This document shows positions 3,988 to 12,843 of a stretch of DNA of 20,157 bases, piece after piece. Numbering within the stretch: position 1 is the first letter of the stretch; every line of letters starts with the position of its first letter. A model generated the notes under the pieces. That model did not search any database. It was not told the origin of the DNA and saw only the letters and a list, made by a program, of their open reading frames with translations. This DNA comes from a virus. The translations under genes were made by a program, and so were the position numbers. Where the stretch lies: positions 1-20,157 of the IMG/VR virus record IMGVR_UViG_3300044995_000129; one strand, written 5' to 3'.

Positions 3988-4017
3988 TGGTGAATGGTTG
4001 AATACATTTCAAACTAA

Positions 4018-4044
4018 AGGGAGCCAGAAATGGCTCCCTCTTTT
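4018..4044 (+). terminator. Rho-independent terminator after major capsid gene
   Basis: GGGAGCCA (4019-4026), a GAAA tetraloop (4027-4030) and TGGCTCCC (4031-4038) form a perfect 8-bp stem. An outer A-T pair extends it to 9 bp, and TCTTTT follows. It lies 31 bases after the capsid stop codon and is a classical intrinsic terminator. Confidence 0.9.
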
Positions 4045-4047
4045 GCA

Positions 4048-4077
4048 TTGACAGACAGAATATAATAATGGTATTGT
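4048..4077 (+). promoter_or_regulatory. Candidate promoter before connector operon
   Basis: A perfect TTGACA lies at 4048-4053. The perfect TATAAT at 4061-4066 is only 7 bases away, too close to pair with it. At the usual distance the best -10 is TATTGT (4072-4077; 18-base spacer), which would start the RNA close to the ATG at 4084. The location just after a strong terminator makes a promoter sensible. The exact pairing is unresolved, and a phage-specific late promoter built on TATAATA is also possible. Confidence 0.4.
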
Positions 4078-4083
4078 AGCGAA

Positions 4084-4785
4084 ATGAAGAGATTTAAAGT
4101 TAAGATAAGCCTGACTCCTAATGGCCGAGGTATATTCATTGATGAGAAGCATGGAATAGATCTTTCTGTGCTTGAGGATAGAGTTACCCAAGAAGTTACA
4201 GTAACAGACTCTGATATCGCGGCTATTCTGTTCTCAAATATCGAATCAGGGAATATCTCGGTAGATGAGGACGCGTATAATAAAATTAAAGCTGTTGTTA
4301 CACAGACAGAACAGATTGTAGCCGATGAGTTGAAAATAGTTGCCCCGAAATCTCAGAAACTTCCAGAAACATTTACACTGACACTATCTGAACGAGAGAT
4401 TATGTGGGGACATGACAGTTGCCCGTTTGTTTTAAACCGAATGGAAGGTAAAGTTCGGACTGAAGAACTCTCCCGGTCCAGTCTTACAAATAAGGCAATA
4501 AATGCCATTGTTGCTGGAATCAACAGTGGTCGTCTGTATTTAAACGTCGAATCAGACCTTAGTGAAACCGCAACAGCGGTTGATCTTAATGAAGATGCTG
4601 TTGAGGTAAAACAACACCATAAATATCTTCTCGGTATTCTCGACAGTCCACTTTCTCAGCTAAAAACAATAATCTCCGATGCGTCTAAGAGTCTCGATCT
4701 TCGATTGATTCTTTCGATTGAACGCAATACGAGAAATCGAGAAGAATACATCAAAGTACTTCGCGAGGCTATAGGTCTGGACTGA
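4084..4785 (+). CDS. Unknown structural protein, first gene of connector cluster
   Basis: I do not recognise this 233-residue soluble protein. The only usable start is the ATG at 4084, because an in-frame stop stands at 4066. No Shine-Dalgarno is visible before it, which is unusual in this window. The protein appears to contain two related segments, roughly residues 8-63 and 97-158. Each begins with a beta-type LT motif and ends with a helix followed by I-x-S-G and a hydrophobic strand (ESGNIS, NSGRLY). The C-terminal 60 residues are helical and charged (KYLLGILDSPLSQLKTII). There is no membrane segment or catalytic motif. It follows the major capsid gene and is 4 bases from the next gene, so a head-completion or neck role is likely from context only. 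Confidence 0.6.
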   Translation: MKRFKVKISLTPNGRGIFIDEKHGIDLSVLEDRVTQEVTVTDSDIAAILFSNIESGNISVDEDAYNKIKAVVTQTEQIVADELKIVAPKSQKLPETFTLTLSEREIMWGHDSCPFVLNRMEGKVRTEELSRSSLTNKAINAIVAGINSGRLYLNVESDLSETATAVDLNEDAVEVKQHHKYLLGILDSPLSQLKTIISDASKSLDLRLILSIERNTRNREEYIKVLREAIGLD

Positions 4786-7570: not shown

Positions 7571-10093
7571 ATGTCTCTTGAAGATTTTAACGGAGTTCGC
7601 TCTAATCTGATTGACGAACTGAACCAGGTAGTCCCGGCGGCAGGAACGGCAGAAGCTGTTGCCATCTTTGGAACAGCCCGTAAAGGTGATATTAATCAGC
7701 TTGTCTTACTGCAAGACGATACGATTGAAAGTATATTCGGAACAGTTCCGAGAGATGCATCGTTTGATACGAATCTACCAAGAGCCTACTACGAAATATC
7801 TCGATGCACAACTAACGGTCTTCTTGCTTATGGCTGTCGCGTTGGTGATGCTCGTGTTGCCACACTCAAACAATACGAATCACAGGCATCTTATACCGGC
7901 ACCGGACAGTTTGAAATAGATCGTATTGCCTCTGGAGACTATGCGTATCAGAGAGATCCAATCACTGATAGTCTGACTTATTCGCTCATTCACGAAGCGC
8001 GTGAACCGGGAAGTGAACCAAACGCAGGACGGGTAGTTGTAAAAGACAATCAAGGTATCCCGTATACTCTGACCTATTTTCTTCCGGATGGAACCAGCAG
8101 AACCTTCGCACTTGATCCGTTCGGTAGAATCCCGAATGCTCTTCGTAATGTTCGAGAAGTAGCTAATGCTCTGAATAATGACCCGAACTGGTCTAAAATG
8201 TATATCACGCGTTATCCGGTTATTCGTAGAACGGATATCCCGGTTACGGTAATGGAAAATAGCAATGGAATCCGCTATATCGAGATTGATTCGAGTGGTA
8301 ATGATTCGAAAGGTGATAAACTCGAAACGATTGAGCAAATTGCCCAGATAGTTAACAATAACTCTGAAACAATTCCTTTCGGTGTGACATCATATCGCCT
8401 TACGAATCGTCCAATTAAGGATACTGACGCAACCACCAGAACCATTGATCGGTTCGTACGACACAATAAGAATGAACTTGTTCTACGAGTCGATGCGTCC
8501 CTGGTAGGTGGGGATACTTATGTCGGCGGGCTTTCTATTGTATCCGCGTCAATGAAATGGGATCGAAACCTTTCAACCCTTTTCACCACCGATCCTTCGA
8601 GTGAGTATTACAATAATGCTCGTCTCTTTGTCCGAAGAGCTGGCTCATCTACCAAAACAGAAGTCCCGAAAGTAAACACAAATAATCAACCCATCTGGAC
8701 TATTGATGCCGATGGGCAGATTACAATTACGCTGTCAAACTGGACAGGTAATACCCAGTTCCTGATGGGTGATGAATATACGATTGATCTTCACTATGGA
8801 GCTGTGTATGTCGAGTCTGAAACCCGTTCAGGTCTCGATTCTGGAAACGAATTCTCGTATTTCATCAAAGGTTATGAAATCATCTTCGGTGCTGCAACGA
8901 CTGTAGAAGTTACTGCGGTATATCGAACGAGAAAAGTATTCATGCCTTCCGATATCAACCTGCTTGATAGGGAAAATATCGTCATCCAGTTTGTGAATCC
9001 CGAAAATCGTCCACCTGTGGGTTCTACTGTTCTGGTAACATATACCCACCTTCCGGAACTTCCCGCCTCGTCTGGTGCAATTCTACAAAGACCCAGCGGA
9101 GCTACAGTTGTGCAGCCGACCGGTTTCTCTGGTGGAGACGATGGACGTCTGATCAGCAAAATGAGGTACAAAGAGCTCGTGCTCGAGGCGATGTCTCTTC
9201 TCGAACTCTATCCATTCCGTCAGATATTCGTTGCCGGCGCATATATTGACGATGTAGAAGTAGGTTTCGATGATGAAACAGGAGAAGAGACGCTAATTCC
9301 AGTCAACTGGGCGCCTGATCTTATTGCTAAACTCAGTCGTCGCTCGAATCTGGTTAAAGAGTGCATCATGGATCTTCCGGTTAGACCGCCGTCAGAAACA
9401 ACTCCAGAGGCGATCAATCGGTGGCTTGATTCTCTCATTACCCTTGATGATTCTGTTCCGGGTCGTCCTGCAAATATGATTGAAGGCGCCAAAGGTCCGG
9501 GCTCATTCCGACTTTGTGCTCCTGCTGGTGCACCGGTGTTTCTTATTCCAAAGGTTAACGGTTCCACAAGATACATTGGTAATCCGGCTGCAGTGACTAC
9601 CGCAATGCGCCAGGAACTTCCGATTGAAAGGAGCATGATCAATATGCCTCTTCCTCCGGCTGTTCTCGATCTGGCAGTGCGTCCTTTCAATGCTGAGATC
9701 ATTGGCAATATCAACCAGCGTGGATGGACTTTTATGACTGTTGACAGTCGTAACAACAGGATTATTGCCGATGCACCAACTCTCGGTATGACAGGTTCAA
9801 TGTTCCAGCGTCAGTTTGTTCTTACAGCTACTATTGCTATGGTTGAGATAGCAAGAGCAACCGCGGAGAGATTTATCGGTCTTCGTCGATCGGAGGGTAA
9901 CCTCATAGCGATGAAGAATAAGATTCAGAAGAACCTGAACTATCTTGTTCCTTCTGTATTCAGCCAGATTGAAGTGGCCATTGTGGATGTACCAAATGGC
10001 GCAATCACTGGTAGTACAAGGATCAAACTGACTGCAATTACGAGTGTTGAAATCCGTCGTGTAGATATCGAAACTCGGATCAGTCTTGCGTGA
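7571..10093 (+). CDS. Contractile tail sheath protein
   Basis: An 840-residue protein starting MSLEDFNGVRSN. Residues 30-80 carry the sheath-type N-terminal pattern: a strand AVAIFGTARKGDINQ, then a segment on subunit boundaries (DDTIESIFG). The last ~150 residues are the conserved sheath C-terminus, with VLDLAVRPFNAEIIGNIN, a strand GWTFMTVDSRNNRII, an arginine-rich helical section IEIARATAERFIGLRRSEGN-like, and a final beta element ending RISLA. Such proteins polymerise around the tube and contract during infection. T4 gp18 has about 660 residues, so this one is long; the extra material lies in the middle (roughly residues 100-530) and probably forms surface domains. It is followed by a hairpin and then the tube gene, the standard order. 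Confidence 0.92.
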   Translation: MSLEDFNGVRSNLIDELNQVVPAAGTAEAVAIFGTARKGDINQLVLLQDDTIESIFGTVPRDASFDTNLPRAYYEISRCTTNGLLAYGCRVGDARVATLKQYESQASYTGTGQFEIDRIASGDYAYQRDPITDSLTYSLIHEAREPGSEPNAGRVVVKDNQGIPYTLTYFLPDGTSRTFALDPFGRIPNALRNVREVANALNNDPNWSKMYITRYPVIRRTDIPVTVMENSNGIRYIEIDSSGNDSKGDKLETIEQIAQIVNNNSETIPFGVTSYRLTNRPIKDTDATTRTIDRFVRHNKNELVLRVDASLVGGDTYVGGLSIVSASMKWDRNLSTLFTTDPSSEYYNNARLFVRRAGSSTKTEVPKVNTNNQPIWTIDADGQITITLSNWTGNTQFLMGDEYTIDLHYGAVYVESETRSGLDSGNEFSYFIKGYEIIFGAATTVEVTAVYRTRKVFMPSDINLLDRENIVIQFVNPENRPPVGSTVLVTYTHLPELPASSGAILQRPSGATVVQPTGFSGGDDGRLISKMRYKELVLEAMSLLELYPFRQIFVAGAYIDDVEVGFDDETGEETLIPVNWAPDLIAKLSRRSNLVKECIMDLPVRPPSETTPEAINRWLDSLITLDDSVPGRPANMIEGAKGPGSFRLCAPAGAPVFLIPKVNGSTRYIGNPAAVTTAMRQELPIERSMINMPLPPAVLDLAVRPFNAEIIGNINQRGWTFMTVDSRNNRIIADAPTLGMTGSMFQRQFVLTATIAMVEIARATAERFIGLRRSEGNLIAMKNKIQKNLNYLVPSVFSQIEVAIVDVPNGAITGSTRIKLTAITSVEIRRVDIETRISLA

Positions 10094-10099
10094 ATAACC

Positions 10100-10125
10100 G
10101 CCCGGATAACTCCAGTTATCCGGGC
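10100..10125 (+). other. Perfect hairpin between sheath and tube genes
   Basis: GCCCGGATAACT (10100-10111) and AGTTATCCGGGC (10114-10125) are perfect reverse complements, 12 bp separated by 2 bases; in RNA the innermost pairs would open to form the loop. There is no T-run after it, so it is not a typical terminator. It more likely stabilises the sheath mRNA 3' end or marks a processing site between two high-copy genes. Confidence 0.7.
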
Positions 10126-10153
10126 ATCTGAATACCCTTGAGGAGAAAATACA

Positions 10154-11014
10154 ATGAGTTTAGGTTCAATTTTCACGAAAACATATACGACTTACTCTGG
10201 CGTAGATGTTAGTGCCATTTTCGATAATATCGAACTGGCAACGCTTGCTGGTATCGCTATCTCTGTAACCAGAGAGAAAGCCCCCGTTTATACATTCGGT
10301 TCGGCAAACCCACGATCTATCTCCAGAGGTAAACGTGGTTGTGCTGGATCTCTGATGTTTACACTATTTGATCGTGATGCCTTCTACAGTCTGTATCTCG
10401 ACGAAAACCACTATTACTATGCGCATGCTGATGAGATCAACTGGTTGACTAACCCCATCAATGTTGCTGAATACGCTGGTATGTTCTATGAACAATTCAG
10501 CGGTTCAGATAACGCCGCAGTAACCCAGGGCGGTCAGCTCTCTGGTCTCGGACGAAATCCAGACGGAACTTTCAGCTATGTCGATACGACCCAGGGGCCT
10601 CCGGTTGCAGGTGTACCGGTTGCTCTTCGAGGTGGAACCACAAATTCACCTATCGCACAGAACCGAATGGTCGGAGCTCGAACTGTTCGCCGGGCAGCTA
10701 TGTATGCTGACCAGGTTATGCCTTTTGACGTTACACTCATTGCTCAGAACGAGTACGGCCATGCTTCGGCTTCTGGAGTTGTTGGTGTTGAAATTATTAA
10801 CGAAGGTGGTGGTATTTCGATGGATGATATCACAAACGAACAGCAAATGACATATATCGCCATTTATCGCCTACCATGGTATTCACTCAATAATGGTGTC
10901 CAGAAAGAATCTATCTATGGTGGCGTAACGTCGCTCATAGAATCGAACAGCGCTAATGGTCTGTGGACAACGTACACAAATCAACAAAGAGCTGAAGTAA
11001 GAGGACAGCCGTAA
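10154..11014 (+). CDS. Tail tube protein
   Basis: A 286-residue protein with AGGAG (10141-10145), 8 bases before the ATG. The N-terminal section, Tyr14-Ser-Gly16 through Pro44 to Gly59 and Gly65, follows the tube-fold pattern of large myophages: YSGVDVS, then a strand, REKAPVYTFG, and RGKRGCAGSLMFTLFD. The C-terminal half has MPFDVTLIAQNEYG and a GVEIINEGGGISMDDI motif, also typical of these tube proteins. A Gly/Thr-rich section (about 115-175) is probably an inserted loop or domain. Stacked hexameric rings of the protein form the DNA channel inside the sheath. Position right after the sheath gene is the standard arrangement. It is closely similar in its first 80 residues to the product of the last gene in the window. 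Confidence 0.85.
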   Translation: MSLGSIFTKTYTTYSGVDVSAIFDNIELATLAGIAISVTREKAPVYTFGSANPRSISRGKRGCAGSLMFTLFDRDAFYSLYLDENHYYYAHADEINWLTNPINVAEYAGMFYEQFSGSDNAAVTQGGQLSGLGRNPDGTFSYVDTTQGPPVAGVPVALRGGTTNSPIAQNRMVGARTVRRAAMYADQVMPFDVTLIAQNEYGHASASGVVGVEIINEGGGISMDDITNEQQMTYIAIYRLPWYSLNNGVQKESIYGGVTSLIESNSANGLWTTYTNQQRAEVRGQP

Positions 11015-11024
11015 ATATTGAACC

Positions 11025-11058
11025 AGGAGAGGCCATATGTATATATGGCCTCTCTTTT
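11025..11058 (+). terminator. Rho-independent terminator after tail tube gene
   Basis: AGAGGCCATAT (11028-11038), loop GTAT and ATATGGCCTCT (11043-11053) form a perfect stem of at least 11 bp, extended by G-C, G-T and A-T pairs outward, and the sequence ends in CTTTT. It begins 10 bases after the tube stop codon and is a strong intrinsic terminator. Confidence 0.9.
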
Positions 11059-11075
11059 GACCCAGGATCGTCATT

Positions 11076-12074
11076 ATGCACGAAATACATTCTCATAACC
11101 TTACTACTATATCGGACAGACTTCGTCTTGGTAAGTATGGATCTGGCTTTCGGTCTCCTGGCGGGCGATTAAACCCATCATCTACCCGTATTGGAGCAGA
11201 AACAGTAAATGATGATGATCTTATTGCCCTGAAGTACAATGATACTCTGGCATCAATACAGATTGCCCCATCTGGTGGATTTACATCAGAAATTACCGGT
11301 CTCACCACGCAAGAACGTCTGCGAAATAGAAAAAGAGCTACAAACCGAGAAGAAGTAGAAACTGATTTTGTTAGAAAATCTGGCTATCTTGACGAAATAA
11401 TAACCGGACTCAAAACATTCGGAGCAGATATCAGAACGATCTCAAATGGTTTCGGGATCGGAATGTATATACCAACAGTACTGGTTAATCAATCAACACC
11501 GGGGACTCAAGGTCTTGTTGGAATAGTGTCGGATCCAACTGGAATACCTTTTGTGGCTGTCAATGACATTGTAATATACAACAATGGTAAGTGGGTAAAG
11601 ATTGCATCTAATGACGGCATCATCGTAATTCCAAATGGTCCCGGTCTGCGACTCGGTAATCTACTGAACGGAGTAATGTATTATCGTATTAACGGGCAAC
11701 TTGTAGAAATACTCGGACCAAGTGCTCGTTTTAAGTCTATCGATATAGTCTGGAATAATATCCTCACTGAAAGTGATGTGGTAATAATACCTGCTGGATA
11801 TCTGGTCAGAGATATATCCGTTGAAACTTTCATACCTTTTACAGCGGCCAACGACGCGACTGTTGTTTTGAAAGTATATGATGGAACAACCACTGTAGAG
11901 AATGTTACAATACCAGGATATCACTTTATTGCAGACTTTGTTCTACAATTTATTCTAAACCATACTTTCTCAAATGATGGTAGAATAACGATACAACTTA
12001 TAAATAACAGCGGAGCTACCCCCGTAACCTCCGGACAGATCACTCTTCGAACCACATATCAGGGATCAATTTAA
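11076..12074 (+). CDS. Unknown beta-rich tail or baseplate protein
   Basis: A 332-residue protein with AGGA (11064-11067), 8 bases before the ATG. I do not recognise the family. The N-terminal ~45 residues are basic and glycine-rich (LRLGKYGSGFRSPGG), followed by a charged helical stretch (LTTQERLRNRKRATNREEVE). Residues ~130-205 are beta-rich with repeated Gly turns (VNDIVIYNNGKWVKI), like a small barrel or SH3-type domain. The C-terminal ~110 residues alternate hydrophobic and polar positions (VVLKVYDGTTTVENVTIPG to QITLRTTYQGSI) and look like a beta sandwich, a fold often used in fibre-attachment or carbohydrate-binding parts. The place after the tube terminator and before the peptidase suggests a baseplate or fibre-adaptor role. 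Function is not established. Confidence 0.6.
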   Translation: MHEIHSHNLTTISDRLRLGKYGSGFRSPGGRLNPSSTRIGAETVNDDDLIALKYNDTLASIQIAPSGGFTSEITGLTTQERLRNRKRATNREEVETDFVRKSGYLDEIITGLKTFGADIRTISNGFGIGMYIPTVLVNQSTPGTQGLVGIVSDPTGIPFVAVNDIVIYNNGKWVKIASNDGIIVIPNGPGLRLGNLLNGVMYYRINGQLVEILGPSARFKSIDIVWNNILTESDVVIIPAGYLVRDISVETFIPFTAANDATVVLKVYDGTTTVENVTIPGYHFIADFVLQFILNHTFSNDGRITIQLINNSGATPVTSGQITLRTTYQGSI

Positions 12075-12085
12075 GTACTTGACTG

Positions 12086-12178
12086 CCTTACTGAGTTGCG
12101 ATCTTAATAAACCACATAATTCTTTGTCAGATGATAATGGAAAAGAATTATGGTTTAATAAGCCGTGACTTAGTGAGG
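12086..12178 (+). promoter_or_regulatory. Long structured leader sequestering the peptidase gene's ribosome site
   Basis: This 93-base inverted repeat can form 35 base pairs: 12086-12100 with 12164-12178 (15 pairs, including four G-U), 12103-12106 with 12159-12162 (4), 12108-12114 with 12151-12157 (7) and 12117-12125 with 12142-12150 (9). The interruptions are small, and a 16-base loop spans 12126-12141. The ribosome site GAGG (12175-12178) of the next gene lies in the base of the stem, paired with CCTT (12086-12089). No T-run follows, so it is not an intrinsic terminator. It resembles no riboswitch or tRNA I know. Likely meanings are a translational switch, an RNase III-type processing site, or a small structured RNA. 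Confidence 0.6.
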
Positions 12179-12186
12179 ATTCGAAA

Positions 12187-12843
12187 ATGTCTACAGTAAA
12201 ACAAACTCCAATCGTGTATCTGGAACACGTCAGAAACACACAACGAGATAATTATGATTGGGGCGGTAAACTACCAAGCTGGGCTCAATGTTTTTATGCA
12301 TCAGCAGTAGTTGCGCTTTCAACCTTGATTAAAATACCGCAGGATAAAGTTCAGGAATATGAACTAGAATATGTGGATGATACAGAAGTTCTTGTAGGTA
12401 AAAAAGGTATAGCTGAACGACTTATTATGAAATTCCCATGGCTAACTGGTAGAAGCGGACAATGGTTTATCGTGCATCAGAATGCTATCTACGAACGTCT
12501 TATCAACGCTGGCGTTGCATTCAAAGATGTAATAATGTACGATGGTAGTGGTTTGTGGTCTGCTAAAACAGGAAAGAAAACCGTGGTCAACAAAACATGG
12601 GAAGAAGTTGTAGATAATCCATTGATGAATGGAAGCTTTATTCTGACAACAGGCAAGTTTCCGCCAACAAACGGGCACATTGTTCCAATCATCGGTATGA
12701 CACAAGACAACTACATCGTCGAAGACCCATATGGTAACGCGCTCACAGAATACAAAGATACTGATGGTCATGACGTACAATACAGTAAAGAATTCATGAA
12801 GAAATACTGTAAAGGCCCGATCGTTATCTATGTTGAATTCTAA
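12187..12843 (+). CDS. C39-like (papain-fold) cysteine peptidase
   Basis: A 218-residue protein whose ribosome site GAGG (12175-12178) lies 8 bases before the ATG, inside a long hairpin. The sequence shows the peptidase C39-like signature in order: Gln34-Cys35 in SWAQCFYAS at the start of a helix (oxyanion Gln and nucleophile), His164 in NGHIVPIIG, and Asp180 in IVEDPYGNAL. That gives the Cys-His-Asp triad of papain-fold enzymes; the strand-turn-DPYG element is very typical of this family. There is no signal peptide, membrane segment, wall-binding repeat or ABC-transporter part, so it is not a bacteriocin exporter. Within a tail operon it may cleave a tail protein or cut peptide bonds in the host wall during entry. 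The fold call is good; the substrate is unknown. Confidence 0.75.
   Translation: MSTVKQTPIVYLEHVRNTQRDNYDWGGKLPSWAQCFYASAVVALSTLIKIPQDKVQEYELEYVDDTEVLVGKKGIAERLIMKFPWLTGRSGQWFIVHQNAIYERLINAGVAFKDVIMYDGSGLWSAKTGKKTVVNKTWEEVVDNPLMNGSFILTTGKFPPTNGHIVPIIGMTQDNYIVEDPYGNALTEYKDTDGHDVQYSKEFMKKYCKGPIVIYVEF

Follow-up and report, generated by a model that had tools for sequence, protein, structure and literature searches.

Hairpins that mask ribosome sites on long transcripts have been described for the phage T4 genes e, soc, 49 and I-TevI (PMC3014915, PMC2988022), and that of gene e is reported to reduce lysozyme synthesis 100-fold on such transcripts (PMC3014915). The kindred T4-type elements that sequester a ribosome-binding site (RBS) comprise those of e, soc, 49, 25, I-TevI, I-TevII, I-TevIII and segB, together with that of mobE in Aeh1; several of the genes controlled in this way encode enzymes, and the product of T4 e attacks peptidoglycan. 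The T4 switch depends on a late promoter situated within the hairpin. Long intergenic duplexes of the T7 type, in turn, are hairpins at which polycistronic phage mRNAs are processed by RNase III.

The DNA analyzed here (‘the window’) is a whole virus record of 20,157 bases, and includes a + strand block of head and tail genes encoding capsid-like proteins, a tail sheath and a tail tube. The hairpin that we describe lies between the following two genes, both identified as open reading frames:

11076–12074, + strand: gene X (332 amino acids; stop codon TAA at 12072–12074), for which family searches gave no match above the cut-off
12187–12843, + strand: C39-like cysteine peptidase gene (218 amino acids; ATG at 12187), whose product is 44% identical to a relative in contig L004

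The peptidase itself matched only a short endolysin stretch above the cut-off (phrog_10051, E = 7e-7 over 46 amino acids), and a PDB profile search with it gave nothing convincing. Its L004 relative, encoded at 11703–12344, passes Pfam Peptidase_C39_2, and the two proteins share Cys35, His164 and Asp180, as would be expected of a papain-like triad. The L004 peptidase gene is located directly behind a gene that, judged from its sequence, resembles a lytic transglycosylase, which suggests a wall-degrading role for the peptidase. A structure prediction from the two sequences (mean pLDDT 42.8) was too poor for use.

The gap between the X stop codon and the peptidase ATG measures 112 nt and no gap in the window is longer, as the original prediction had stated. 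MFE folding, which takes no account of ribosomes or proteins, predicted a single stem-loop on the + strand at 12086–12178, with 38 pairs arranged in five blocks. The stem is AU-rich and begins 11 nt downstream of the X stop codon. Its parts are:

12086–12100/12164–12178, + strand: 15-pair lower block
12086–12100, + strand: 5′ arm of the lower 15-bp block, the anti-Shine-Dalgarno side (CCUUAC...)
12164–12178, + strand: 3′ arm of the lower 15-bp block, terminating in the Shine-Dalgarno (SD) sequence
12175–12178, + strand: GAGG, the SD sequence of the peptidase gene, fully paired in the MFE fold
12103–12106/12159–12162, + strand: 4-pair block
12108–12114/12151–12157, + strand: 7-pair block
12117–12125/12142–12150, + strand: 9-pair block
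12127–12129/12138–12140, + strand: 3-pair apical block
12130–12137, + strand: apical loop of 8 nt

The fold reproduces exactly the four blocks of 15, 4, 7 and 9 pairs that had been proposed from the sequence, and adds the three apical pairs.

The 126 nt at 12075–12200, for which a comparison with shuffled sequence had been proposed, folded to −42.6 kcal/mol against a shuffle mean of −20.36 (sd 3.34; z = −6.66), with none of 200 dinucleotide shuffles folding as well. We also scanned the whole window with a helix score (+1 for each pair, −2 for each mismatch or gap). The top score in the entire window, 27, fell at the hairpin; among 150 shuffled windows, the highest score per window averaged 18.9 (sd 1.8) and never rose above 24. 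Judged by free energy alone, the hairpin stands out less: in 50 shuffled 20-kb strands the most stable single hairpin averages −35.2, and one strand holds a comparable one (−41.8 vs −41.7), the surplus over shuffled strands being smaller because the stem is AU-rich. That one equal among whole-window shuffles, together with an L004 locus that does not conserve the hairpin, could be taken to indicate a chance structure without function; we consider this very improbable, given a helix score above all 150 shuffled windows and a position in the longest gap, precisely over the SD sequence. The hairpin is a real and well-placed RNA hairpin.

The helices contain five non-Watson-Crick oppositions, all of them G-U when read on the + strand and none A-C. 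Were they products of strand-neutral decay of a DNA palindrome, G-U would be equally likely on either strand, so that five out of five would be expected about 1 time in 32. The same hairpin folds to −39.4 on the + strand vs −27.2 on the − strand. Since the − strand still beats its own shuffles (z = −6.6), this pattern favors an mRNA element without proving one, and the hairpin pairs best as + strand RNA. Scored with Watson-Crick pairs only, the palindrome reaches 14, inside the shuffle range (mean 11.5, maximum 15). A repeat search of the window matched only the hairpin's own other arm, while a search of viral contigs for the exact pattern of the 5′ arm and a distant blastn search of phages and plasmids returned short chance matches only. 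With the palindrome within chance and no further copies found in the window, phages, plasmids or viral contigs, we rejected an inverted repeat of a mobile element, and the ends of a small mobile insertion, which the original prediction had allowed for, are disfavored. A decayed form of such a repeat, or another palindrome acting at the DNA level, would be in keeping with the folding of the − strand and with the variable junction behind the tube gene, where the genes that follow differ between L003 and L004; the Watson-Crick score, the missing copies and departures from pairing that are G-U only, and so point to + strand RNA, make it the least credible of the explanations considered here.

Two known classes of RNA element were also rejected. 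An intrinsic terminator would require a U-run, and none follows the stem (the downstream sequence is AUUCGAAAAUG); the hairpin is likewise absent from the terminator listing. For a riboswitch or other Rfam family, no covariance model matched the hairpin at gathering score, in agreement with the earlier view that no known riboswitch is present, and the sole weak match was to a microRNA model on the opposite strand (E = 0.68). The further suggestion that this might be an undescribed RNA element holds in that no Rfam family fits it, but not in kind, since the masking of an RBS by a hairpin is well documented for phage mRNAs (PMC3014915, PMC2988022).

As had been predicted, GAGG lies inside the bottom of the stem: it supplies the final four paired positions on the 3′ side and closes the lower stem, and 8 nt separate it from the ATG. 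In the predicted structure the SD sequence is paired in a stable helix, as in RBS-sequestering leader hairpins in the broad sense. The cost of opening the ribosome footprint, 18.7 kcal/mol, is the highest among 13 window genes, with that of gene p4790 (18.0) close to it. The gaps at 2479–2538, 3988–4083, 10094–10153 and 11015–11075 hold short hairpins that leave the SD sequence outside. These three features (an SD sequence within the stem, its opening cost and the sparing of the SD sequence by the other four gap hairpins) support the proposal that this one is placed to control translation of the peptidase. The four short hairpins are compact and perfect (2487–2508, 4018–4039, 10100–10125 and 11027–11054), follow gene 1384 and the capsid-like, sheath and tube genes, and are backed by a T-run in only some cases. 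At 12069–12162 of contig L038, another kind of fold buries the AAGGAG of the next gene at 18.4 kcal/mol, the deepest burial among the scanned gaps; burial of an SD sequence is therefore not by itself unique to the window hairpin.

The leader of T4 gene e served as a positive control and folded into a hairpin that has AGGAGG on its 3′ side. The window hairpin is like the T4-type elements in that its 3′ arm contains the SD sequence, at ~8 nt from AUG, and in that a stable stem forms on long transcripts arriving from upstream. Its 38 pairs compare with ~16 for T4 e in the same program, making the stem about twice as long. We consider it probable, though by no means certain, that the hairpin is a cis-acting mRNA repressor of C39-like peptidase translation on read-through transcripts. 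Such transcripts would cover the sheath, tube and X genes and continue into that of the peptidase, and the 5′ arm would pair with the ribosome-binding site and exclude 30S subunits; peptidase output would then be low or late relative to that of the abundant structural proteins encoded nearby. We infer repression in the cell, which is the best-supported step of this mechanism, and also the manner of its relief, for which the candidates would be a transcript start inside the hairpin (as in T4 gene e), a cut by RNase III, or no relief at all (down-tuning only). Counting against masking, a ribosome terminating on X halts right at the base of the stem.

With respect to the first of these candidates, an RNA that begins at 12112, within the 5′ arm, or at 12158 shows no folding beyond that of shuffles, and no strong stem contains its SD sequence. 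By computation, the SD sequence is free on transcripts starting from 12112 onward, as on the shorter transcript of the T4 gene e type. One promoter-like sequence lies in the hairpin:

12124–12151, + strand: weak sigma-70-like match TTGTCA-N16-AATTAT (9-of-12), within chance, from which transcription would start at ~12158

The sigma-70-like scan gave nothing in the hairpin beyond what chance would produce, with 51 matches observed in the window vs 58 expected, although the phage's own promoter types may differ. The T4 late-promoter motif TATAAATA, which may not be this phage's, does not occur in the gap and is at chance level in the window. In contrast to the T4-type elements, the window hairpin yielded no late promoter, and since the genes around it are themselves structural (late), a need for early/late timing does not readily account for it. 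Elsewhere in the window, the sequence TTGACA-N18-TATTGT at 4048–4084, with TG ahead of the second hexamer, ends 6 nt before an ATG at 4084 that has no clear SD sequence; the gene starting there possibly has its own promoter and a leaderless start.

Cleavage of the duplex by RNase III, which the original prediction had also allowed for and with which the hairpin is compatible, is the chief alternative to masking, or an addition to it. The window hairpin resembles the T7-type processing hairpins in its long duplex, broken by small internal loops and set between genes that are transcribed together, and differs from them in that its SD sequence lies within the duplex. As an RNase III processing site, or as a 3′-end stabilizer of the upstream structural-gene transcript, it would allow a cut to split the peptidase message from the X message, and burial of the SD sequence would be secondary or relieved by that cut. 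The ~35 nearly continuous pairs exceed the duplex length that RNase III needs. Compact hairpins also lie in four of the window's gaps farther upstream, behind genes whose products are required in abundance, and in many relatives one directly follows the tube gene. Those in the upstream gaps are, however, shorter and do not hold the SD sequence, and we regard this explanation as possible but somewhat unlikely.

Phage mRNAs also carry operators for autoregulation, as with gp43 and gp32 of T4. The stem-loop could be such an operator, its closed form being stabilized by a phage protein, and its overlap with the ribosome site, defined 8-nt loop and internal loops would suit that role. The window contains no second copy, conservation provides no support for a binding site, and the stem is stable enough without protein; we therefore judge an operator to be improbable.

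Relatives were sought in viral and genome contigs with the peptidase, X, tube and sheath proteins or profiles. Only two contigs, L003 and L004, encode close sheath and tube relatives, and none were found in bacterial genome contigs. No homologue of X was found in either record. The junction behind the tube gene is variable: by eye, L003 has endonuclease/phosphoesterase-type genes there (9355–11578), and L004 has SpoIIE-like phosphatase and lytic transglycosylase genes (8929–11700). The L003 record contains no peptidase match, leaving L004 as the sole relative that keeps the gene, in a different gene context. There 2 nt separate the peptidase gene from the one before it, with neither gap nor hairpin and an unremarkable leader (z = 0.46); on comparison of the two loci, the hairpin is thus not a conserved companion of the peptidase gene at that distance. 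The original prediction had named a relative keeping the gene without the pairing as evidence that would count against it. L004 is such a relative, but it is distant, rearranged and single.

Across 176 intergenic gaps in tube-family loci, the window hairpin has the longest stem. Four loci (L046, L047, L048 and L056), from phages that share only the tail-tube family with the window phage (~32% identity), carry a hairpin of 29–30 pairs whose 3′ arm includes GAGG, and the TTG start codon of an RNA-ligase gene (identified by TIGR02306 and RNA_ligase matches) follows this GAGG at a distance of 8 nt. This hairpin (11164–11238 in L047; z = −5.5), an independent parallel that speaks for masking, lies behind structural genes in a structural operon. 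It is like that of the window in following a structural gene and in pairing GAGG within its 3′ arm at the same spacing from an enzyme gene, and unlike it in having unrelated sequence and preceding a different gene. The loci fall into two variants (L046/L056 and L047/L048), and because the stem is identical in all four, no covariation is gained from them. It is conceivable, though we hold it to be unlikely, that tube-family phages repeatedly evolve SD-burying duplexes of ~25–38 bp before enzyme genes of structural operons (peptidase, RNA ligase), as switches that would be RNase III-dependent or otherwise regulated and not dependent on a T4-type promoter shift.

By analogy with the described systems, the window hairpin is most likely a fresh instance of a familiar control element, the RBS-masking leader hairpin, and the finding overturns nothing known. 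If true, leader-hairpin masking as known from T4-like phages would reach a distant, uncultured group, and the arrangement suggests a means by which a phage might hold a possible cell-wall- or protein-cutting enzyme low within a bulk structural operon.
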